NCBI GenBank assembly: GCA_022539475.1
Contig: VCMS01000055.1
Span: 124,001-188,000 of the forward strand
From: Gracilaria domingensis
Lineage: Eukaryota; Rhodophyta; Florideophyceae; Gracilariales; Gracilariaceae
Length of the DNA stretch: 64,000 nucleotides
Direction: 5' to 3'
Shown here: positions 5,893 to 47,394 of the stretch, one piece after another
Numbering within the stretch: the first letter of the stretch is position 1
Layout: every line of letters begins with the position of its first letter
Program-made: the position numbers and the translations under genes
The notes under the pieces: generated by a model
What the model saw: the letters and a program-made list of their open reading frames with translations, nothing else
The model's database searches: none
What the model was told of the DNA's origin: nothing

Positions 5893-6618
5893 ATGCTTCC
5901 CCTGCTAAGTCGTTCCGAACTTCCATTCGTTGTTTTCGCCATAGTCTTCTTGATCGTTTACCGCATTTTGAGTGAATCTGATACCATGTCAGCATCCAAA
6001 CAATCGCTGAGATTAGTAATTCTGTCTGACACACACCGTTACTTTCGTCATCCGGTACCAGATGGGGATATCCTTGTTCACTGCGGAGATTCGGAGTGGC
6101 GCGTGGACGAAGCAAATGACTGGGCTTCAAAGTTACCTCACGCGAACAAGATATTCGTATCCGGTAACATGGATAGGCGGTTTAAGGGCAAGACCAATGA
6201 ATTCCGTGATATTATATACCTGCAGGATTCAATGGTGGAGGTAAATGGGTTGAAAATCTACGGTTCGCCTTGGACACCAGAGTTTGTCGGCGAGTTCCAG
6301 TTGAGCAATAAAAAGCAAGCAGAAGATGTTTGGGATGGGGTTCCAAACGATGTTGATATTCTGATAACACATGGGCCTCCCAAAGGCATCCTGGATACTA
6401 CTAGTCGTGGTCTTCGTGTTGGAGATGCAGTTCTTCTGGAGAAAGTACGTGAAGTGAAACCTCGTGTTCATTGTTTTGGCCACGTTCACGAGAGCTACGG
6501 AACTGTGATGAATGACGGCCCAACCCTCTTCTGTAACGCGGCAGTTTTCAACGGCCACGCACCTCTTGTCGTTGACATACCGTTTGATCACACGAAACCT
6601 GCTCGACTTGTTGCTTAG
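5893..6618 (+). CDS. Calcineurin-like metallophosphoesterase, MPPED1/2-type, membrane anchored
   Basis: 241 residues. Metallophosphoesterase fold using two metal ions to hydrolyse phosphodiesters or phosphomonoesters; the natural substrate of this subfamily is not settled. Motifs in order: LVILSDTHR (DxH), ILVHCGDSEW (GD), VSGNMDRRF, ILITHGPP and HCFGHVHESYG (GHxH). The short length and spacing fit the MPPED1/MPPED2 and plant rhamnogalacturonate-lyase-neighbour type. Position 4 of the block normally reads GNH-D/E; here Met replaces the phosphate-binding His (GNMD). Residues 10-26 (LPFVVFAIVFLIVYRIL) form an N-terminal TM anchor. The ATG at 5893 is the first in frame. Convergent with RNASEH2A, tail to tail. 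Confidence 0.85.
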   Translation: MLPLLSRSELPFVVFAIVFLIVYRILSESDTMSASKQSLRLVILSDTHRYFRHPVPDGDILVHCGDSEWRVDEANDWASKLPHANKIFVSGNMDRRFKGKTNEFRDIIYLQDSMVEVNGLKIYGSPWTPEFVGEFQLSNKKQAEDVWDGVPNDVDILITHGPPKGILDTTSRGLRVGDAVLLEKVREVKPRVHCFGHVHESYGTVMNDGPTLFCNAAVFNGHAPLVVDIPFDHTKPARLVA

Positions 6619-6694
6619 ACGCGTGTTCCTGAGAGAGATCCTTGGACTGCTAGAACTACCTCCAGTCGTGGACCAGCACAAAGGAAGAAAGCAA

Positions 6695-7765
6695 TCAGAG
6701 CAAGCTCGGAGCACGCCGCAGAGCCATCGATTGCAGCACCTGAGGCATATGGTATGAAACTCCGGCAAGTTTGCGTCTTTTGGAAGGCCCGGGTTCCGAT
6801 GACTTGGGCTTAGCCGAAAAGAAGGATTTGATGTCCTTCGTCTTCACTGCTTTGGCTCTTGTTGCTTTCTGCGGTTTGCTTTCTTCTTCTTCCTCCTCAC
6901 ATTCCCTGGGAATGAAATGGAGATACCTCGTAAGTTAGTAACATCGTTTACATGACCTTTTCTCGAAAAGGGTATTGTTCACAGAACATTGTACAACGTA
7001 CCAATCGACTTGCACAGCATTCTGTTGCAAGATTGTTTTCGTGGTCCCCCAGGAGAACCGGACGAAAGTGGGAAACCCGAAAAGGTCGTCACAGTTCTTT
7101 TCCATCCAGACCTTTGTGAGAGGGTCGCTCGGATATCCACTCCCTCGTGGTCCGATGAACTCCACTCGCTGATTCAAATCGCTTGGCTCGAAAGTCGCAC
7201 TCCTTTGCTCTTCCGGAAAGCACCATTCTTTAATGGAGTTGTCCCTTGTTGTCTTCGCCATTATGCTCGCAGCTCCAACAATGGGATAGGTGGAATCCGC
7301 CTTCTTTGCCACGACAACTTTTTCAACCATTGGAAATCGTTCACGAAACTTGGCCGCATACTGGTCTGCATTACCCACAGTATCAACGTATATCTCCGTG
7401 ACGTTGATACGTTCATCGAAAGCGTTTTGTACCAACCCAAGAGCAGTATCATGAGATATAAGGTTGAGATTGTATTTTTCCTTTCGCAACATATTGCTGC
7501 TCAGGTACTCGGCGGTCAGGGCTCTCTCAAATATACGGAGGAAAGATGCTCCTTCAATTTTGCCGCGGAGTTTGTCTCGTTGGTCTTCTTTGAATGTCTT
7601 GGAATCGTTGACACCTAGAGCCCGCAGGCTACTGGCGTGTGACTTTGGGCAAACAGCAGCTGCATACACCATCGGACCGAGTACTGGTCCTCGTCCAGCT
7701 TCGTCGATACCAAGTATGCATGGGGTTCCTGATTGCCATACGTCTCGTCCTTTGTTTTCGCTCAT
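6695..7765 (-). CDS. RNASEH2A: Ribonuclease H2 subunit A, one intron, join(6695..6905, 7002..7765)
   Basis: Catalytic subunit of RNase H2, which removes ribonucleotides from DNA and RNA of RNA-DNA hybrids in the nucleus. Two exons give 324 residues. Exon 1 carries the active-site elements: GIDEAGRGPVLGPMVYAA, NDSKTFKEDQRDKL, VDTVGNADQY, KKADSTYPIVGAASIMAK and GSGYPSDPLT, ending in VRFSWGTTK. Without splicing the frame runs on into a non-family tail; splicing gtacgt (donor at 7001) to cag (acceptor at 6906) restores VQVDWECEEEEEES and a basic tail. The intron is 96 nt. The tail contains TKDIKSFF (about residues 277-284), close to a PCNA-interacting box. Family certain; intron inferred from frame, splice motifs and sense of the tail. 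Confidence 0.93.
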
Positions 7766-8326
7766 TGTGAGGAGGGAAGTTTTGCTTTGACGGGAAAGAA
7801 GAACCGATGATAGATTGTGTCCCTTTCGTCTGTCAGGTACTTATGTATAACTGGTAAGATATCATGGTTTGAAGGAGGGCTAGCCTTGTTGATGGTACAT
7901 CGCAATGGAGATAGTTCAACACCATTTCGTTCGAGGGATACCGTTCCCGCCAATTCTCTATTACCCTTTCTGGGCAGTTGCTAAAATGATTTCAGTGAAA
8001 TCGTTGAATCGTCTCCTCCTACTAGAACACGTGGATTAATTAATTGTTTTAGGTATAGGTATTCATAAAACCGTGAATGCCTTCGCATCTCTTACGTCTC
8101 AATTGCAATTCATGAGGTTTTGTTCGTTGGAATTCGTCAAGGATGTCCACAGCGTAAGAGGGCTACCCTTCGTACGTTAGGAAACTTTGCCCAGAGGGTA
8201 CATGCTCAACTTCTTAGACTGAAGAAGTTATTATGCTCCATTTCATCGACTTATAGTGATTCGCAGATTGACGGAATTCGTTGCCAAGAAGGTCGTTAAG
8301 ATTCAGAGCCAAAGCAAAGTTGCGTG
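7766..8326. other. Divergent intergenic region
   Basis: About 560 bp between RNASEH2A and the alpha-COP-like gene, presumably a shared promoter region. AT-rich around 8030-8080. Nothing else recognised. Confidence 0.45.
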
Positions 8327-10207
8327 ATGGGTGTAAAGGCGGCTGTAGTTCATGATGCTCCTCGCCACGCAACGATCGTGCTCCGCACGAGGAGCAATAA
8401 CATCGCTGACCGCTATTCGGTTCTAGAAACCGTGGCATCCTTTATGCAGCATTGTGATTCCTTACGCGGTGTTGCGAAGACAGTGACGCAAGTCAGCGCT
8501 CTTTGGGGAGGTCCGCCGTACATTGATTACACTGTGGTTGGTTCTCGTTTTCGAGTGCTTCTAGTGTGGGACGAAGAGCCGACCGAATTTGATGTTTGCT
8601 ATGATGTACATAATGCGATGAAGCGCCTCGAAAGCGCGGTGCAGAACGTCGTGGACGCATTAGAAGCTCGCTCTGTGGAAGCAGTTGCTGCGGTGTACGA
8701 TGCAGCTGGACGCGTATTGCGTTCTGAGTTTTCACCAGATCTGGTCGAGGCAAAGTCGTCTCGAGCGAAGACGTTGTCTATCCCAGGATCAAGACGCTCA
8801 TCTGTTTCAACTGAACCGAAGAAGAGGAAGAGTTTGTTTGGTCGCATTGGTTCCGCGCTTAAGTCCTCATCTGATGCAACTAAGAAGCCTCTAAAGCACG
8901 AGCCACTATCCCCGTTGCCATCGGAGAAGGAGTCTAGCGTGGCCGCCTTTGGCTCGACCACAGCACTTGATAATGAAGTTGGTCACTTGGAATTATCAGA
9001 TGAGGTGTTTAAGTGGACGGAATTCGCTCCCCTTCAAAGCGATGAAAATGACTTGAACTGGTTCGTGGAACTTATTAAGGGAAATGAAGAGCAAGAAGTG
9101 CGTGCTGAACCCCCAAGACTTCGCACGAATATCTCCACGCCACTTACTATTTTCGCACCAGATGCTTCGGGTGTTGAAACTGGAGCTCTTTCACTGATAC
9201 CTCCGAAAGATAAAACAGGGACAACACCGATGCAAAGTACACTGCCTCACAATATTATTATAGAGTCGCCAGCTTCCATGGCTGCTGAAAGCGCTACGAC
9301 GGCTACGAGTAAGACAGCTTCTGTTGTCGTTCAAAGTGTAAATTCAACGCCTCAAATGATTCCTACAGGTGTGAGAGAGAATGCTGAATCAAAGGGCACG
9401 ATTGTCACTGCAACTGAAGAACGAAAAGTCGCAAGCAGGGATAGCAGGCTTGCGAACGGCAGTTTTTCTAAGAAACCCGACGATACAAAAGAAGATTTGG
9501 CGGTTGAATCGCTGGGTGCTCTAAAAGACGAAGCAGCCTCAACAAATGCATCAGCACAAGAAGAGCAGGATTCTGCAGTTCGCTCACGGATGAACGACTT
9601 TGCGCGCTCAATGCAATCTGGAGAATTCCCAACTGCACTGCGCCAGGTGACCGCCACACTGCAGTTTCTTTCTACTATTAACCCCCGCCGAGAACGTGAA
9701 ACTACAACCTGTGCGAATTACTATGTTGCGATGAAAATTCTTTCTCGCAACGCTGCACTTGAGCGCGAACTATCTGTTGTGCTTCCAAATTCGCCAGACG
9801 CAGTTCAACGACATGTCGAATGTGCACTGCTGACTATGTTTCTTGCCGAATTGAAACATTTGCTTCCTCGACACCGGATAGCTGCAATGCAGGTGGCCAT
9901 TGAGAAGAATGCTGTCGTTGGCAACTACGGGATGTGCGCAAGATGGTTGCGAGAACTTATCGAACGGGCACCGGAGCGCGCGAAAGCGGAGTTGCAAAAC
10001 AAGCTTTCAGTCTGTGCGCGAAACGGAGAAACGAACAAACACATGCCACCCACCAACCGAATTTGCTATTCTACGTTGCAAGTAGTGACTTCCCCATATG
10101 GTAAGTGCTCTGTTTGCGAGGCAGTGTTTCATGGATTTTCGTCTGGTGTCTCTCACGGGCAACTATGTGGTGTCTGTTTCGTAGGTATCGTCCATCGTAG
10201 AGTGTAA
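8327..10207 (+). CDS. Protein with alpha-COP-like C-terminal domain and no beta-propeller
   Basis: 626 residues from the first ATG (8327). Residues 1-130 form a compact, mixed alpha/beta-looking domain without a name I recognise (MGVKAAVVHD...; YIDYTVVGSRFRVLLVWDEE). Residues about 150-420 are low complexity, Ser/Thr/Glu-rich and basic in part, likely disordered. Residues about 425-626 resemble the C-terminal domain of coatomer alpha: a helical part with RHRIAAMQVAIEKNAVVGNY, then CARWLRELIERAP, KHMPPTNRICYSTLQVV, and a closing zinc ribbon CSVCEAVFHGF...GQLCGVC. Coatomer alpha uses this region to bind epsilon-COP. The WD40 propellers that precede it in coatomer are absent. A trafficking role is inference; the alternative is convergent helical and zinc-ribbon similarity. 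Confidence 0.65.
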   Translation: MGVKAAVVHDAPRHATIVLRTRSNNIADRYSVLETVASFMQHCDSLRGVAKTVTQVSALWGGPPYIDYTVVGSRFRVLLVWDEEPTEFDVCYDVHNAMKRLESAVQNVVDALEARSVEAVAAVYDAAGRVLRSEFSPDLVEAKSSRAKTLSIPGSRRSSVSTEPKKRKSLFGRIGSALKSSSDATKKPLKHEPLSPLPSEKESSVAAFGSTTALDNEVGHLELSDEVFKWTEFAPLQSDENDLNWFVELIKGNEEQEVRAEPPRLRTNISTPLTIFAPDASGVETGALSLIPPKDKTGTTPMQSTLPHNIIIESPASMAAESATTATSKTASVVVQSVNSTPQMIPTGVRENAESKGTIVTATEERKVASRDSRLANGSFSKKPDDTKEDLAVESLGALKDEAASTNASAQEEQDSAVRSRMNDFARSMQSGEFPTALRQVTATLQFLSTINPRRERETTTCANYYVAMKILSRNAALERELSVVLPNSPDAVQRHVECALLTMFLAELKHLLPRHRIAAMQVAIEKNAVVGNYGMCARWLRELIERAPERAKAELQNKLSVCARNGETNKHMPPTNRICYSTLQVVTSPYGKCSVCEAVFHGFSSGVSHGQLCGVCFVGIVHRRV

Positions 10208-10385
10208 GGACTATGTGATCGAGGCCACGTCCACGGCGACTGCAATTAGCTGCCACTAGTGAGTTGGTTTAACCTAATTCGAAGAGGCGCGAAGATCTTC
10301 ACTGCTCCCAGGCGATATTTGTGAATCGAAACTGCAAGCAGCTCCATAATCTTCAAGGGAGCCGCGCGTGCACCTGGTGTGTCCA

Positions 10386-12869
10386 ATGGGGCCTAGGAAA
10401 CATTCAAACCGCCCGGCTCTTGTTGCCTCTCACCCAAGGCATGCTTCTGTAAACGACGCGACCCGAGCTTACCTGGAGTATCCATCGGCAGACGACTCTG
10501 TCTTATCTCGCACACGCACAAGACCCCCTCGTACCTCAAAGTTCAGGGGATCACGTCCACGAGCACATGGCCGGAGTTCCGTGCTTCCTGGCTCGCAGTC
10601 AAAGCTCTTGCGACCATTAAGATCGTGCGTATCTCATCTTTCATCTGAAGCAAGTGAGGTGAGCGTTGGTCGACTCTGGGTTCGGATTCCACATAGATTG
10701 CGCCGTGTTTTGTTTATCGCGGGTTTCATCGTTGTCTACTACTATGTGTTCGCAAAGCATCACTACTATGACCGAGAGATATCAGATATTCATGCTGAAG
10801 TTGAAAAACTAGTTCAAGAAGCCTCAGAATCGGGATTTATGGGACGGCAGTTTGTTGAAGCCGATCTACCCCCTATCCTTCGAGAATCAGTAGTACTTCC
10901 AGTTCTTGGGAATCAGTACAATTCCTCCGAGGACAAGACTGCAACGAAATCCGGTTCAAGTACGAAAAAGGCGAAGCCGGATAAGGGCTCTGCTGATAAA
11001 AAGCTCTCCAAGCAGAAGGGATCAACTGAAGATGACAGTCTACCCTTGAAGAAGAAAAAGAAAAAAAAAAAGAAAGCCACGAAAGAAGCTGACGTAGAGC
11101 CTAAAGCAAAAAGTAAGGCTAAAGCTGGGGAAGATGAAGGCGAATCTAATCACGTCAGCGACACTCATGTGGAGCGGACGAAAATGAGCAGCAGAGAGAC
11201 CGTTCCAGCTTCATCGAAAGAGCAGAAGAACTCCGCATCACCTTCTCCGCTATTAGATAGCCCTATTGGCAAGGGAGCGGGTACATCAACTGAGTCAGAT
11301 TCAGGGCACGGCTCGCGGTCAACTTCGGTGTCCCCAGTTTCGCCATCCCCAAATGCAGCGAGAATTGAAACAATAGAGAATGGAGCTCAAGAGAATAGTA
11401 CGACTGATGTTGTAGCGACAGAGGTGGACGACTCTATCTTTGAAGATCTGTCTTTCGAGGACGTACCGAAGGGAATGATACCTGTTCTGAAATGGAAATA
11501 CGAAAAGGTGAAGGATCCTACTACTACGGAACAAATTTTCGGTATTGGCGATAGACTCGAGCACATCGGGGTCTATAAGCCCCTTTGTATTGATTCAAAC
11601 TCCAGCGATGCACTTGTGTTTGAGGGCGAAACAATCTGCAGTGGTTTTAACAGAACGGAAGGCTGGCTCATTCATTATTGTGCAGTCATGCGAGAAGCAT
11701 TGTACAAAGAAGACCTTCTTCAAGTCCAGGACGCAAAGAAAGAACTTACTTGGCTTCAAGAGAATGAAGCGGATATTCAATGGGTTGAAGGTGTCACCGT
11801 CTTACAAATATTAGAGAGAAACTGCGGCAATATAGCTCACTATGGGGGACGACTTCTCTTTCTTCAACATATCATAGAAAATATTGCGGCTTACGTATCT
11901 ATGCCAGCAAAAGTGGATCAAGTTCTCATTCTGCCTACTCATCATATCATGAAACGCTTTCTATACCCTCAAAACTATGAGTATTGGCATAAAACAATGC
12001 TGAGCGCCTTGTTGGCGCCATCGAAGCCCGGGGTTGGTACTCTTGGAAACTTTCTTTATCGGCTGTCGAAAGCAAAGGATTTGAAAGAACCGCTGGTGCA
12101 ACTGCTTCACAACTACTCTTTGGCAGGTAGTGAAAACCCGAACAAGAAGTATGTTTGCTTTCGGAAAGTAGTTATTCCAGGTTTTCTAAAAGGTCGCTTC
12201 TTTGTCAATGACATGGAGTATCCGTCAAAACGAATATCACTACAGAGCAGAACTGAAGGTGCTCCATCGGTACCAAGAGATAGTCTAAGAATGCGGGAGA
12301 GAGTGTCAGCCCTAATAAGACAAACTCCTGTACTAGAAAGAATGAGGAAGGTAATCGTTTTGTTGGATCGGAATGGCTCTCGGCGAGTGTTTGAGACAAA
12401 GACGAGGTCAAAGATGATCGACATGTTCACTTCCGTTGGCAAGGAAAAAGGATTTGCGTTCAAAATCGTTGACTTTTCCAAGAAACCTTTTGAGGAGCAG
12501 TATCAAATGGTCAGCGGATCAGCAATCGCGATTGGCATCCACGGTGCCAATTTGGTCAATACCATGTTCATGCCTCCACTTTCAGTTCTCATTGAACTGT
12601 TTCCCAATGGATTTTGGCACGCCATGTATGCCAACGGAGGAAATTCAGGTCTCAAATACTTTGGATACGAAATGAAAACTGGCCCACGTTACCCTGGTTT
12701 ATCGAAGTTTCGGTCGGTTGCTCAATGCATCAAATACGATAATGCTTGTAAGCTGCATTATCGAGATGCTTATGTGATTTCGACGGACGAAGATACTAAA
12801 GCTGTGGAATCCATACTAAGGTCCGCGATAGAGTGGTGCGAAAAAATAGGCTTCGAAACAAGTCCGTGA
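10386..12869 (+). CDS. GT61-type glycosyltransferase, type II membrane protein
   Basis: 827 residues from the first ATG at 10386 (the frame opens slightly earlier at a GTG). A basic cytosolic N-terminus of about 107 residues precedes one TM segment (VLFIAGFIVVYYYVFA, about 109-126), then a long charged stem with a run of nine or more lysines and Ser-rich blocks (about 180-330). The catalytic domain occupies about 370-820. Family 61 signatures: DMEYPSKRISLQSR region, VIVLLDRNGSRR, then FEEQYQMVSGSAIAIGIHGANLVNTMF and VLIELFPNGFW. Members act in the Golgi or ER on xylose, arabinose or O-GlcNAc linkages. Donor and acceptor cannot be read from sequence; red algal cell-wall galactan or glycoprotein decoration is a guess. 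A second GT61-type gene lies 4 kb downstream. Confidence 0.88.
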   Translation: MGPRKHSNRPALVASHPRHASVNDATRAYLEYPSADDSVLSRTRTRPPRTSKFRGSRPRAHGRSSVLPGSQSKLLRPLRSCVSHLSSEASEVSVGRLWVRIPHRLRRVLFIAGFIVVYYYVFAKHHYYDREISDIHAEVEKLVQEASESGFMGRQFVEADLPPILRESVVLPVLGNQYNSSEDKTATKSGSSTKKAKPDKGSADKKLSKQKGSTEDDSLPLKKKKKKKKKATKEADVEPKAKSKAKAGEDEGESNHVSDTHVERTKMSSRETVPASSKEQKNSASPSPLLDSPIGKGAGTSTESDSGHGSRSTSVSPVSPSPNAARIETIENGAQENSTTDVVATEVDDSIFEDLSFEDVPKGMIPVLKWKYEKVKDPTTTEQIFGIGDRLEHIGVYKPLCIDSNSSDALVFEGETICSGFNRTEGWLIHYCAVMREALYKEDLLQVQDAKKELTWLQENEADIQWVEGVTVLQILERNCGNIAHYGGRLLFLQHIIENIAAYVSMPAKVDQVLILPTHHIMKRFLYPQNYEYWHKTMLSALLAPSKPGVGTLGNFLYRLSKAKDLKEPLVQLLHNYSLAGSENPNKKYVCFRKVVIPGFLKGRFFVNDMEYPSKRISLQSRTEGAPSVPRDSLRMRERVSALIRQTPVLERMRKVIVLLDRNGSRRVFETKTRSKMIDMFTSVGKEKGFAFKIVDFSKKPFEEQYQMVSGSAIAIGIHGANLVNTMFMPPLSVLIELFPNGFWHAMYANGGNSGLKYFGYEMKTGPRYPGLSKFRSVAQCIKYDNACKLHYRDAYVISTDEDTKAVESILRSAIEWCEKIGFETSP

Positions 12870-16930: not shown

Positions 16931-18166
16931 ATGAAGAATGAATCATTTTTCAGACATGCAACGGGGATAATGCATTCACAAAGATATGCGTTCTTGATAG
17001 CTGCGTTCTTCTTTCTGGTAACTCAGACTATACTACTCTCCAAGGTTCATGTTCAGTATTCAACAGAGGTTAAGCAAGTTCGCAGAAAAAAGTTGAGCAT
17101 TCCGGGAGATGTGCTGCGCTCTTTCTGTCACTCAGACCCAGGCATAGATGCTAGAAGGATAACGATGAAAACGAAGTTAAACTGCTTTGGTGATTGTGAC
17201 CAACAGCTGAAAGTGGCACAGAAAGGTGCACGTGCAATCTTAGCCCCGCCTGTTACTCGACTTTGTTTCGACAACCCTTTTCATGGCTTCTATGATTGCA
17301 TCTGGCCTCTTGTACACTACCTGAGTACGTGTGTATCAGCAAGAGAAACCCCTGAGTTAATCCTTTACGATATTAAGAACATATCAGCCATCCGACAAGC
17401 GAAATGGGTAATTCACGCGCAGCAGGCGTTCCTCCGAAACATTGGAGAAGAATTTAAATCTGTGGATAGAACCGAGCTTCCCCGATGCACATGCTACAAT
17501 CATATTGTGAGGTTCAGAAGGAATACTATGTGGAGACCAGTACGCTTTCATTCGAGGGCTACAATAGGAAACAATACAGTGATATCACCACATCCTACCG
17601 GATTGAAACGATTGGGACTACAACTGTTCCGAAGAGCAGTATTAAATGAATTCGGACTGAACAGTGAACCTCTAGAAGGTACGTTAGATATTCTGATCTA
17701 CGGTCGAGAGGATGTTTTCCGAAGAAGGTGGCTGAACGTGGACGAGTTTGAAAGAATGCTACAACAGGCAATTCCAACAAATGCGAGGATCAAGCGGTGG
17801 AAGACGCCTGATAGAGAGCAGAGAGATGCGTTTGAGACACAAGTGAGACAGATGAACGGCGCTGCAGTAGTAATAGCACCGCATGGTGGCGGAATGGTAA
17901 ACACGCTTTTCTGTCGTCGAAGGACAGCGGTTATCGAAATCGCGAGCAGGAGGTGTGCTATGGCGAATGAAAGCGTGTTTTTGAACGAAGCGATGGATGT
18001 CAACGATGAGAACACCTGGACGCCTTGGCATGCGGATAGTTTGGAACTTGTACACTTTGCCGCACCATGTTGGTATAGCCGGAGCGGGGAATACGATTTC
18101 TACGCGGACACGGAGGAATTAGTGCGCCTTGTACAGATTGCATTACATGCCCGGCAGCAGGTTTGA
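16931..18166 (+). CDS. Second GT61-type glycosyltransferase, type II membrane protein
   Basis: 411 residues. A short cytosolic tail, then one TM anchor at about 19-38 (FLIAAFFFLVTQTILL), a short stem and a compact catalytic domain. Signatures: DNPFHGFYDCIWPLVHYL near residue 115, ILIYGREDVFRRRWLN, and AAVVIAPHGGGMVNTLF followed by TAVIEI, the same block as in the upstream 827-residue enzyme (IGIHGANLVNTMF ... VLIEL). It is much shorter because it lacks the Lys/Ser-rich stem. Golgi residence is expected from the topology. The two genes are not recent duplicates, since identity is confined to the family motifs. Acceptor and donor unknown. Confidence 0.85.
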   Translation: MKNESFFRHATGIMHSQRYAFLIAAFFFLVTQTILLSKVHVQYSTEVKQVRRKKLSIPGDVLRSFCHSDPGIDARRITMKTKLNCFGDCDQQLKVAQKGARAILAPPVTRLCFDNPFHGFYDCIWPLVHYLSTCVSARETPELILYDIKNISAIRQAKWVIHAQQAFLRNIGEEFKSVDRTELPRCTCYNHIVRFRRNTMWRPVRFHSRATIGNNTVISPHPTGLKRLGLQLFRRAVLNEFGLNSEPLEGTLDILIYGREDVFRRRWLNVDEFERMLQQAIPTNARIKRWKTPDREQRDAFETQVRQMNGAAVVIAPHGGGMVNTLFCRRRTAVIEIASRRCAMANESVFLNEAMDVNDENTWTPWHADSLELVHFAAPCWYSRSGEYDFYADTEELVRLVQIALHARQQV

Positions 18167-18559
18167 CTTTTGAGGTGTGTGTGGGGGTGGGATGGGTTTG
18201 TCAGGGAGCTGATCCCCCTAGAGGAGCGCCTGCGTAGTCTTCGCTGACATTCCCCCGCATCATTTCGATCTCAATACAGTACACGTACACGTACGCGGTA
18301 GCATACCTCGCTGGGCCACGTGTCATACGTTGAATGGTCCATAGTGATAGCAGCATCGCAGTGGCTCGCTAGCAGATTCTTCTCTCACACCCAAGCGCCA
18401 TCGCTGCCGGGAGAGAGCTGTGTGACAGGGTTTCCGCCGGAAACTGTCCGGGTTCTCGCCTGTGGAGAACCGAGGAAGGTAAAACCCCAGTCTCTCCTCC
18501 ACCGAAAGCCCGCATGCACATTCTTCCGCGTTCACAGCAACCCTTCCGCCCTTCACCCA
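18167..18559. other. Promoter region upstream of the NUMOD3 gene
   Basis: About 390 bp. Includes a short (ACGTAC)n-like run at about 18280-18295 and a CCACGTGTC G-box-like hexamer near 18315. The downstream frame is open through here from 18320, but that stretch does not look like a targeting peptide. Confidence 0.4.
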
Positions 18560-20146
18560 ATGCTGCCGTCGTCTACGCTCCTCCTGCCTCGCCCGACAAC
18601 CTCGTTCTACGCCTTCGCACCCGCATCTCCGCTATCCAGCTCTCTTGCCCAAGCTTATGCCAAAAATGTAGGCAGAGCACGACAGTCCTTCACCACGCGA
18701 AAGAGGCCTCGTCCACCGTATACCTCTCCCACCAGCTTAGCTTCTCCTCCAGACTTGCATCAGGCAGGCAAACCACTTCTGCAACAAGCGCGAGACCGCG
18801 TGAAACTGCCGTCAGACGTTGCGCCCACTCCACCAGATGAAGCCGCCTCTGACAACGACGATTCTGGCATTTCACAAGCGCAAAGTGCTGAACAGCTCTC
18901 TGAATCCCAGCAACACAGGAAGCGAGTCGTCAGTGAGGAAACTCGCCGTCGCATTTCGTACACAATGCTAGGAAAGCCAAAGTCCAAGGAAATGCGTGAA
19001 AAGGTATCACGGAGCATGAAAGGACGTGTTCCATGGAACAAGGGCAAGAAGCTAAGCCCTGAAATTCGAGCTCGTATGTCTGAAGGACGCGTTGGACGTC
19101 CTGCATGGAACAGGGGGAGGGCACTCACTGCGTCCCATCGACAGGCTATCAGTCAGTCTATGACGAACATTGACCGAAGCATTTCTACTGAGACTAGGCA
19201 GAGAATGAGAATGGCTCGAAGACGACCGGGAGACGGTATTGTTCAGGGTTCTATGCGGTCGGGAATGGTTGGGAATTATCCGCTTGTTGACAGCGCCGAT
19301 ATCAATGCCTATGTTACATTGCGACGTGAGCTGCGTGTGTGGAGTGATAAGTTCAAGAAGAACAATTCTAGGAGACCCAGTTTAGCTGATATTCGACGAT
19401 TTGCCCCCATTAGTATCATTCGTAAGTTTGAGAAGTATGTGTCCATGAGGGATCAAATTCGCGGCCTTGCAGGTGATGTCTACGGTTCAGTGAACCCGAA
19501 TGACGTTCCAAGTGTTTCTACTGGAGAAGTGTCCAGTGCACCACGAAATAACGGTGCCAGGGCTATACACATCACCAAACACGGTAATCGACGCCTGGTA
19601 TCAACGGCTGCCGATCAAGAGGCTGACAATGTGGGATACAGCGATGGTCGCCATAGCTTAGAAGGCGCATTGGAGGATATGTGGGATATGTATGACAGAC
19701 CACATACTCGAAGTAGTGTCAAACGTGATCAATACAGTCATATGCTCATTGGGGCCGGCGAAGCTGGGAATAGGAAGGAGCGCCTTAGTCCACGTGACTT
19801 TCGTATGATAGGACGCTATCGACTCATGGAGAGTATGGACATCCATCGGTTTGTATCGTTGCGACGAGAGCTTCAGAAGTGGTCCGATGAATTTAGGGAA
19901 AAGCATGGGAGAAAGCCGAAATTGAGCGATGCTAGAAGCGAAGGGAAAACAGCTCTCTATCATCGTTTCTGTGAGTATTTAGATATTAGAGGCAAAATGA
20001 GTGGCCTTGTTGAGGAGGTGTACGGAACTGAAGTGGATGACCTAGAGACTCTCGTGAAGGCAAACGAGGAAGGTAAGATTATGCTAGATGCGCTTCGTTC
20101 CGGGGGGAGTGCCACGAACTATGACTGTTATGATAAAGCACAATGA
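18560..20146 (+). CDS. NUMOD3-motif protein with a duplicated 62-residue domain, plastid-type
   Basis: 528 residues from the ATG at 18560. I preferred this over the open frame from 18320 because it starts a transit-like peptide (MLPSSTLLLPRPTTSFYAFA). Residues about 125-190 contain several NUMOD3 units (GKPKSKEMREKVSRSMKGR, VPWNKGKKLSPEIRARMSEG, PAWNRGRALTASHRQAISQS), a DNA-contacting module known from homing endonucleases and from some plastid proteins. No GIY-YIG or HNH nuclease domain is present. Two copies of a basic helical domain follow, at 19302-19490 and 19841-20027, sharing LRREL-WSD-F, RRPS/RKPKLSDAR-type blocks, a conserved Arg-Phe-Tyr pattern and ending G-L-EVYG or GDVYG. A plastid nucleic-acid-binding role is inference. 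Confidence 0.78.
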   Translation: MLPSSTLLLPRPTTSFYAFAPASPLSSSLAQAYAKNVGRARQSFTTRKRPRPPYTSPTSLASPPDLHQAGKPLLQQARDRVKLPSDVAPTPPDEAASDNDDSGISQAQSAEQLSESQQHRKRVVSEETRRRISYTMLGKPKSKEMREKVSRSMKGRVPWNKGKKLSPEIRARMSEGRVGRPAWNRGRALTASHRQAISQSMTNIDRSISTETRQRMRMARRRPGDGIVQGSMRSGMVGNYPLVDSADINAYVTLRRELRVWSDKFKKNNSRRPSLADIRRFAPISIIRKFEKYVSMRDQIRGLAGDVYGSVNPNDVPSVSTGEVSSAPRNNGARAIHITKHGNRRLVSTAADQEADNVGYSDGRHSLEGALEDMWDMYDRPHTRSSVKRDQYSHMLIGAGEAGNRKERLSPRDFRMIGRYRLMESMDIHRFVSLRRELQKWSDEFREKHGRKPKLSDARSEGKTALYHRFCEYLDIRGKMSGLVEEVYGTEVDDLETLVKANEEGKIMLDALRSGGSATNYDCYDKAQ

Positions 20147-31969: not shown

Positions 31970-32665
31970 GGGAGCGGAGTGGGAAGTGGAGCTACGCGGA
32001 CGGGGAAGGGGAGGGCGTAGACGGCATTCACAACTCGGACGGTTGGAAGATATACGAAATGCGGCGAGAGGTGGGGGGCGGGGGGATTGCGAACGTTGTT
32101 CTTTCGCGTGAGGGTATAGGAGCGAATGAAAAAACGTAACGAACGAGGCGGGAGTGAAAAGACTCGCAAGGGGAGAGCGGTGGGGGGGAAGAGGGGGAAG
32201 GAAGGTGTAGTAATGGCAAAGGGTGAGGAAGAAGGAAGGGCGGGCGGGGAATTGTAGGGGAGGGGAGAGGGAGGGAGCGCAACGGATTGATAGTGGGAAG
32301 GGAAGGTATTTAGATGTGCAGCGCAGAGGTGGCTGGTGCGGTAGGCTGCGGGGCGACTGCGTCTGCTGTTTGGCGCTTCGGGCGCGAGCGCAGACGCGAG
32401 ACGCGGCGTGCCTGTGCGCACACGCGCGCAGCAGTAATAATAAGCAACGGCGCAGCGCGGCACGTGCTGCGCAGCGGCGCGCGCGCCGCGCACTACACGT
32501 AGCGCGGCGGCACCCGCGCACACGCGCCAACGGCACTCAGCTGCGCTGACGCGCAGCCATGCTTTGCTGCGCGCGCGCGCCGCCTTACACGCGCGCAGCG
32601 AGCCGGCGCTGTCAGCCGCGGCGCGCGCCCACGTGCCCACGCGCACACGTGGCGGGAGCACGCGG
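31970..32665. other. Purine-rich then GC-rich intergenic region
   Basis: About 700 bp. From 32040 to 32300 the plus strand is G/A-rich with several runs of five or more G (for example near 32072-32090 and 32181-32197), so G-quadruplex formation is possible. From about 32340 the base composition shifts to a very GC-rich, CpG-dense island. Long ORFs on both strands here follow from the composition and are not believed. Confidence 0.5.
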
Positions 32666-33151
32666 CTATGCGCCGTCGCCCTTGCAGTCGCGGCGCGATA
32701 CCATGTTGAGCATCGTGTGCAGCAGCAGCGAGCCGCGCACCTGCGCCGAGGGCGGCGACGGCCGCTGCGCGTCGCGCGCGCGCGCGGCGCGTCCGGCGCG
32801 CGGCTGGTCCTTCCACCGCACGTGGCGCTCGCTCAGGCGCCGCGGCGGCGCGAAGGGCGCGGCCAGGCTGGTCGACGAGCAGCTCGGCGACGACGACGCG
32901 CTGCGCGAGACGCTGGCGCTGCGGCTGCGGCTCAGCGCCGCGTCGCCGCGGCCTGGCATGAGGTTGCTGAAGAAGCTGGCCAGGTCGCTGAGCTCCTCCA
33001 CGGCGTGCTGCGACGGCGAGCGCGCCAGCGCGGCGTGCGCGCGGCGCTTCTTGCGGCGCGACGCCGAGCGCGGCGCGCGCGACGAGCGCTTGGGCGGCGA
33101 GCTCGACGCGCTTTCCGACGACGAGCAGCTTTGCACGCTGTCTGAGAGCAT
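32666..33151 (-). CDS. Unknown Ser/Arg-rich protein with an RVxF-like motif
   Basis: 161 residues in a GC-rich island where both strands are widely open, so the call rests on protein character. The N-terminus MLSDSVQSCSSSESASSSPP leads to a basic block (KRSSRAPRSASRRKKRR), a short hydrophobic helix-like segment VEELSDLASFFSNLMPG, a Ser/Arg repeat, and APPRRLSERHVRWKDQP. RRLS is a basophilic kinase site pattern and RHVRW fits the [RK]x[VI]x[FW] docking pattern of protein phosphatase 1. The last 40 residues look less protein-like. It could be a PP1-binding regulator or a compositional artefact. Confidence 0.45.
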   Translation of the reverse strand: MLSDSVQSCSSSESASSSPPKRSSRAPRSASRRKKRRAHAALARSPSQHAVEELSDLASFFSNLMPGRGDAALSRSRSASVSRSASSSPSCSSTSLAAPFAPPRRLSERHVRWKDQPRAGRAARARDAQRPSPPSAQVRGSLLLHTMLNMVSRRDCKGDGA

Positions 33152-33730
33152 GTTGGCTGCGGTTCGACGGCGACGCGGGCGTGTACCGGAGCAGCGCGCG
33201 CAGCCGGCGCCAGGCAGCGCGCTTATATAGGCGCGCGCGCGCAGCGAGCGAGCGTGACGCGCGCGCGCGCTATCTGCTGCGGCGGGCGCGGCTGGCGCGG
33301 CTGGCGGCGGCTGGCGCGGCTGGCGGCGCGGCGGCGCGGCGGCGCGGCGGCGCGGCGGCCTGGCGCGCGCGGCGCGCGTGGCGCGCGGCCGCGCGCGGCG
33401 CCGCGCGCCACGGGCTGGTGCTCATCTGGCGAGGTGGCAGATCGCATCTCGCGACCGCGCGCGCTATGCGGCACGTCTGCCGCCGTTTATGGCCGCCGCG
33501 AATGGCGCGCGCGCAGCCGCCGCTCGTGCGCCGCCGGCAGTTTGGGACGCCGCCACGGCGTCGCGCCGCCACGTGCCACACGTCGCGCGCGCCTCGCCTC
33601 GCGCCGCGCGCGCAGCCGCTGCCGCTGCCGCTGCCGCGCCACATGATGCGCAGCGCTCCGCCGCCTGCGCGCGCCGCCGCGCGCTGCGCCGTGCGCGCCG
33701 CGCTTCGCGACTGTCTCGCCGCCCGCCGCC
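33152..33730. other. CpG-dense divergent promoter island
   Basis: About 580 bp of almost pure G+C with many CGCGCG and GGCGCGGC runs (for example 33230-33275 and 33290-33420). It separates the Ser/Arg-rich ORF from the DUF1295 gene and most likely holds the DUF1295 promoter. Alternating CG tracts can adopt Z-DNA. ORFs of up to 260 codons cross it in several frames purely by composition. Confidence 0.55.
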
Positions 33731-34663
33731 ATGTCCAACCCGCTGGACGACCGCTTATTGGCGCTCACCGCCGTCGTCACGATTCTGTATCAGCTCGCTT
33801 TCTTCCTGCTCACGTACGCGCTGCGCTTCGACAAGCTCACTGATTTCGCCGGCACCACCAACTTCATCTTACTGGCCATTCTCACGCTTACGGTCGGCGC
33901 CGCCTTCAACGCGCGCCAAATCGTGCTCTCCGCCTGCGTCCTCGCCTGGGGCGCCCGCCTGTGCGCCTTCCTGCTCTACCGCATCCTGCTGTGGGGCGAG
34001 GATCGTCGCTTCGACGACAAGCGCGATAATCTTGCTAGATTGGCTGCCTTTTGGCTGTTGCAAGCTATATGGGCCTGGACCGTTTCGCTGCCCATCACCA
34101 TTGTCAACTCCAAGGCTGTCAGCAGCTCGCTCAACGCTCGCGACTACGTCGGCTGGATAATCTTCGCCTTGGCCGCCCTCCTGGAGGCTGTGGCCGACCA
34201 ACAAAAGTTGGCGTTCAAGAACAAACCAGAGTCGAAGGGCAGGTGGACCGACGTTGGTGTGTGGAAGTGGTCTCGCCATCCCAACTTCTTCGCCGAGATG
34301 CTTGTTTGGTGGGGCCTGTTTATCTCGGCTACCAATGACCTTCAAGGCGCGGAGTGGGCCGCTATTGCGAGTCCCATTTTCATCACCCTGCTGCTGCTGT
34401 TTGTCAGCGGTATTCCCATCCTCGAAAAGTCCTGGGATGCCCGATACGGCAACAAGCCGGGCTATGCGGAATGGAAACAACGCACTAGCGTGCTTATTCC
34501 CATCCCGCCCTCCCTGTACGTCGCATTGCCGAGCGCTATTAAGACCACCCTGTTGCTCGATTTCGCCATGTACAACCCCGGACCGCCCGAGCTCTCGGAA
34601 CAGAACGTCGTCGACGCAGCCAACGAACACACAAGTTTGGTGAATGACGACGCTCAGTCATAG
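33731..34663 (+). CDS. DUF1295 membrane protein, steroid 5-alpha-reductase-like
   Basis: 310 residues with about seven hydrophobic segments. DUF1295 proteins belong to the steroid reductase / isoprenylcysteine methyltransferase-like superfamily of NADPH-dependent membrane enzymes; the physiological substrate of the DUF1295 branch is generally unknown. Family features: FNARQIVLSACVLAWGARL with YRILLWGEDRRFDD, WIIFALAALLEAVADQQK, GRWTDVGVWKWSRHPNFFAE and LVWWGLFI, then IPILEKSWDARYGNKPGYAEWKQRT. The SRHPNFF block carries the cofactor-binding residues of the superfamily. The ATG at 33731 stands at the edge of the GC island in a GCCGCCATG context. Confidence 0.9.
   Translation: MSNPLDDRLLALTAVVTILYQLAFFLLTYALRFDKLTDFAGTTNFILLAILTLTVGAAFNARQIVLSACVLAWGARLCAFLLYRILLWGEDRRFDDKRDNLARLAAFWLLQAIWAWTVSLPITIVNSKAVSSSLNARDYVGWIIFALAALLEAVADQQKLAFKNKPESKGRWTDVGVWKWSRHPNFFAEMLVWWGLFISATNDLQGAEWAAIASPIFITLLLLFVSGIPILEKSWDARYGNKPGYAEWKQRTSVLIPIPPSLYVALPSAIKTTLLLDFAMYNPGPPELSEQNVVDAANEHTSLVNDDAQS

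Positions 34664-43145: not shown

Positions 43146-47394
<4,249 letters not shown>

Follow-up and report, generated by a model that had tools for sequence, protein, structure and literature searches.

Why should a protein that has no beta-propellers end in the C-terminal domain (CTD) of a coat scaffold subunit? The question is raised by an open reading frame (ORF) of the red alga Gracilaria domingensis, which lies at 8327-10207 on the plus strand of the window analysed here, a stretch of 64,000 nucleotides (contig VCMS01000055.1, positions 124,001 to 188,000). The ORF is intact from ATG to stop and encodes 626 amino acids (aa) in a single exon as read. In the ORF listing it began at GTG 8324, giving 627 aa, and ATG 8327 was taken as the start; an in-frame TAA at 8297-8299 ends 27 bases 5' of this ATG. 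Our comparisons indicated that residues 416-626 (9572..10204, plus strand) are a real CTD of the type found in coatomer subunit alpha (alpha-COP), beyond chance though under the curated Pfam cut-off. In the Pfam scan of the ORF, no WD40 or other propeller family matched at E <= 1. An initial annotation had proposed both an alpha-COP-type CTD in the last ~200 residues and the absence of propellers, and both proposals were borne out.

Through to the end of the domain, residues 416-626 gave a significant in-order profile match. Pfam COPI_C, a profile of 405 positions, matched residues 416-621 of the whole protein with its positions 186-389 (19.3 bits, E 5.2e-4), and the CTD alone scored 22.2 bits (E 6.8e-5; profile positions from 197 to 389). 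Further tests of the CTD were made because both scores were below the curated COPI_C cut-off of 25 bits. Residues 401-626 were aligned by hhalign with an alpha-COP CTD profile built from two sequences (the alpha-COP of the same genome and PDB 6tzt), resulting in a score of 56.5 with a probability of 94.3, whereas the best of 100 shuffles reached 26.5. In BLASTP against the genome's own alpha-COP, window residues 418-625 were covered (E 4e-6), and a PDB search by single sequence reached alpha-COP only at E 1.6-1.7. The CTD helices and the closing Cys region (Cys 580, 594, 597, 614 and 617; 10064..10204, plus strand) align in order with those of alpha-COP; however, the window protein has neither the WD40 propellers of alpha-COP nor the first ~185 positions (1-185) of the COPI_C profile. 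The closing region had been annotated as a Cys4 zinc ribbon. The Cys region is indeed present, but the published fold for alpha-COP is a RING-like treble clef and not a zinc ribbon, and the alpha-COP CTD serves subunit contacts (PMC4678705).

Own-genome searches covered the 77.9 Mb assembly in 680 contigs. A separate full-length alpha-COP gene, for which the initial annotation had suggested looking, was found on C131 as a 1300-aa ORF with propellers and a COPI_C score of 285 bits, and the possibility that the window ORF is the coatomer alpha gene itself was rejected. One epsilon-COP gene was found in the genome, on C3. COPI_C matched at least 65 places in the genome, one of them the intact alpha-COP, and an identical stop count (1 TGA, 2 TAG) appeared in 49 of 65 COPI_C rows. 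Seven loci with alpha-COP pieces were compared; at the protein level, six of them are ~76-92% identical to the intact alpha-COP and the remaining one 69%, and four locus pairs had 3.5-3.9 kb of DNA in common (95.7-97.8% identical). These copies look like a repeat family having captured part of the alpha-COP gene.

The nearest relatives of the window CTD appear to lie outside coatomer. A search of the genome with the whole window protein returned the protein itself and one other place, C35 (7 scored candidates, E <= 1); this search did not report the genome's own alpha-COP and may therefore overlook distant relatives. On contig 35, the C35 ORF (1351 aa) encodes a propeller-type protein, which ends in a CTD related to that of the window protein (31% identity over 109 residues, E 3e-13). 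Among viral contigs there were five pattern matches, with no relative among them. For comparison with the scaffold of TSET we used a provisional sequence of a plant TWD40-type protein, not a database copy, which we take to be TWD40-1 and to which we provisionally assign the TTRAY label; it serves as a lead, not as a test. The sequence is hardly invented, because it aligned with the real gene C35 in three collinear blocks (C35 positions first: 153-334/139-310, 502-724/557-778 and 1146-1348/1391-1590; E 7e-6, 5e-8 and 4e-8, respectively). Against the CTD of this provisional sequence, the window CTD showed 31% identity over 171 aa (E 2e-20), compared with 22% over 222 aa (E 3e-6) against the genome's own alpha-COP CTD. 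The C35 CTD also matched the provisional plant CTD (E 2e-9), which itself aligned with the own alpha-COP CTD (E 9e-12) and scored 20.4 bits against COPI_C, similar to the 22.2 bits of the window CTD; against PDB it gave nothing at E <= 0.1 and one unrelated chain at 0.83. In an unrooted tree of five CTDs, the provisional plant sequence included, the alpha-COPs stood apart (100) and the window protein and C35 were weakly joined (56-60).

Since the window CTD scored closer to those of the provisional plant TWD40 sequence and C35 than to that of alpha-COP, we read it as a TSET-type (TTRAY) tail instead of a coatomer tail, the TTRAY reference being a provisional one. The pointer of the initial annotation to TSET/TPLATE diversification was well placed. 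TTRAYs are the beta-propeller/alpha-solenoid scaffold subunits of TSET (PMC4031984). The likeness to TTRAY1/TTRAY2 (plant TWD40-1/-2) is confined to the CTD: they have two propellers and a solenoid, whereas the window protein has another N-terminal domain and a long linker. Two points weigh against the TTRAY label. The first 500 residues of C35 gave sub-threshold propeller matches in Pfam, the best being Beta-prop_VPS8 (E 2.9e-6), and Vps8 has the same propeller-solenoid-RING plan (PMC4678705). The last 251 residues of C35 had no Pfam match at E <= 1 and scored 22.1 in hhalign against the alpha-COP profile, within the range of shuffles (best 24.7 of 100). In favour of the label, no alignment of C35 with the own alpha-COP fell below E 0.016.

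In place of propellers, the window protein begins with a small domain (residues 1-135; 8327..8731, plus strand) that is perhaps longin-like, as suggested by a low-confidence model. AlphaFold2 without alignment predicted the order strand-strand-helix-strand-strand-helix-helix (E4-11 E14-20 H26-50 E65-71 E74-80 H87-113 H117-133) in the best of five models, with pLDDT 62 and pTM 0.56; the other four had pLDDT 40-51. This order is that of the longin topology less one strand, and the sigma-subunit pattern can be traced by eye through residues 64-133. The sequence and fold tests of longin identity for residues 1-135 gave no significant support, and we treat the longin likeness as a hypothesis: in hhalign, residues 1-140 scored 11.5 against six longin domains of the same genome, where the mean of 200 shuffles was 11.6. 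Against the N-terminus of a provisional plant TML sequence, hhalign gave 13.1 (best of 300 shuffles 21.8) and BLASTP one in-register 51-aa alignment that was not significant (E 0.46). Profile dynamic programming against longins gave -50.6 for the window protein, compared with 35 to 105 for true longins left out in turn and -39.8 for the provisional TML; the window score was equalled or exceeded by 19 of 150 shuffles and by 0 of 54 real segments. The Pfam scan of the whole protein returned no Adap_comp_sub or muHD match at E <= 1. Residues 136-415 (8732..9571, plus strand) have a hydrophobic residue fraction of 0.22, versus 0.37 and 0.36 in the flanks, and judged from composition this linker is probably disordered. 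After the N-terminal domain, a basic stretch PKKRKSLFGRIGSALKS was seen at window 8816-8866 (residues 164-180); judged by eye, it might serve as a nuclear localisation signal or form an amphipathic helix at a membrane.

We propose, with a little less than even confidence in its main lines, that the window protein carries, without propellers, the CTD of a TSET scaffold subunit (TTRAY-type), bridging the core and the scaffold of a reduced coat. Starting from the observed CTD homology and missing propellers, we infer roles in docking, pairing and bridging. The small N-terminal domain, perhaps a longin as in coat small and medium subunits, would be tied to the CTD by the long flexible linker, which would let it reach a second partner, and it would dock on another trafficking protein. 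The CTD may act as an interaction module, as in alpha-COP, where it makes subunit contacts (PMC4678705), and could pair with the scaffold protein C35 or substitute for the CTD of C35. The window protein would thus bridge a reduced TSET-like coat, in which it may replace the medium subunit TCUP. This replacement idea ties in with two reports: TCUP was undetected and one TSAUCER was detected in red algae in a 2025 survey that assembled 42 libraries (PMC12167817), and the C-terminal mu homology domain of TCUP was lost in Dictyostelium (PMC4031984).

TCUP (TML) and the window protein may share an arrangement of N-terminal longin, linker and C-terminal domain, as far as the model goes, and the Dictyostelium TCUP is likewise without a mu homology domain (PMC4031984). 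However, the window protein carries a TTRAY-type CTD in its place, and the N-terminus of the provisional plant TML was not matched significantly. The muniscins (FCHo/Syp1) provide a precedent for a TSET domain shifted onto a new N-terminus (PMC4031984), though there the TCUP mu homology domain sits on an F-BAR domain, while the window protein has a scaffold CTD. A further-reaching version, which we consider unlikely, is that in this alga TSET was rebuilt: the medium subunit would have lost its mu homology domain and acquired the CTD of TTRAY, its own scaffold, which would unite core and scaffold in one chain. If true, a rebuilt TSET would account for the non-detection of TCUP in red algae.

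Coat subunits were searched over the genome with the profiles PF01217, PF01602 and PF00928, and we read the resulting sets as AP-1, AP-3 and COPI. PF00928 matched three places, two of them checked by Pfam, with the AP-1, AP-3 and delta-COP subtypes named by reading; no mu-homology-domain gene was left over among these matches for a separate TCUP, PF10291 (muHD) not having been searched genome-wide. None of the three places was read as a medium subunit of AP-2 or AP-4. PF01602 matched 11 places in 9 loci, six of which were checked by Pfam and three of these also by PDB sequence, namely AP-1 gamma (C13), AP-3 beta (C93) and AP-3 delta (C30). By eye, C291 was taken as a close copy of the AP-1 gamma on C13, and C122 and C4 as long HEAT proteins, condensin- and CAND1-like. 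None of the nine PF01602 loci was left for TPLATE or TSAUCER. One own-genome search with a provisional TPLATE sequence had a best E of 8.98, a miss that means little because the beta-like TSET subunits of Dictyostelium and Arabidopsis are 14.63% identical (PMC4031984). By reading, the two copies of AP-1 gamma (C13 and C291) are closely similar, and AP-1 sigma has a second, interrupted copy on C345 in addition to that on C107.

The relationship of the window CTD to both C35 and alpha-COP would also be expected of a TTRAY or alpha-COP paralogue shortened by the loss of propellers and solenoid, which gained a foreign N-terminal part and now acts as a decoy or regulator competing for the partner of the CTD, and an N-terminal domain without an accepted match fits such an origin. 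However, the low-confidence model shows the N-terminal region as an ordered domain in which strands and helices follow a longin-like order, and we regard the shortened paralogue as somewhat unlikely. The initial annotation had suggested an adaptor competing with coatomer alpha for epsilon-COP, for which one epsilon-COP gene was found in the genome. In alpha-COP, a beta-hairpin in the stretch before the last CTD helices is gripped by epsilon-COP. The idea of epsilon-COP binding is weakened because COPI_C positions 1-185, this hairpin region included, are missing from the window CTD; furthermore, its nearest CTDs, those of C35 and the provisional plant TTRAY-type sequence, are not coatomer's. 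Such competition is doubtful and in our judgement quite improbable, and the initial interpretation is supported in its CTD, its missing propellers and its TSET hint but not in this role. An ordinary scaffold gene that has its propeller exon farther upstream, with the ORF as its 3' part, is highly improbable: a splice acceptor-like stretch was seen by eye directly before ATG 8327 and the genome search does not read introns, but the in-frame stop intervenes, and three upstream plus-strand ORFs of at least 100 aa lie in 6000-8327: one encodes a phosphoesterase (266 aa), and the other two (209 and 108 aa, not covered by the domain scan) overlap a minus-strand RNase HII gene.

We return to the propeller-less carrier of a TTRAY-type CTD. 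In the literature searched, mostly without subscription papers, no description was found of a propeller-less protein with an alpha-COP/TTRAY-type CTD. Related to the AP and COPI coats, TSET has been little studied, and the 2025 survey reported it as reduced in red algae (PMC12167817). Here, a scaffold CTD split from its propellers occurs in the same genome as a full-length scaffold gene whose CTD is related to it, and the window gene and C35 are two genes through which the function of this CTD and the retention of a TSET-like coat by red algae can be studied. Should the N-terminal domain turn out to be a longin domain, parts of a core subunit and of a scaffold would be fused directly in this protein.

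Around the gene, two glycosyltransferase family 61 ORFs were seen at 10368-12869 and 16931-18166. A 608-aa ORF at window 18320-20146 contains a NUMOD3 motif, which is usual in homing endonucleases, in a genome of nuclear type. The window is mostly 44-56% GC, apart from GC-rich stretches at 32001-34000 (73%) and 44001-46000 (66%), the latter falling inside an aspartokinase-homoserine dehydrogenase-like ORF.
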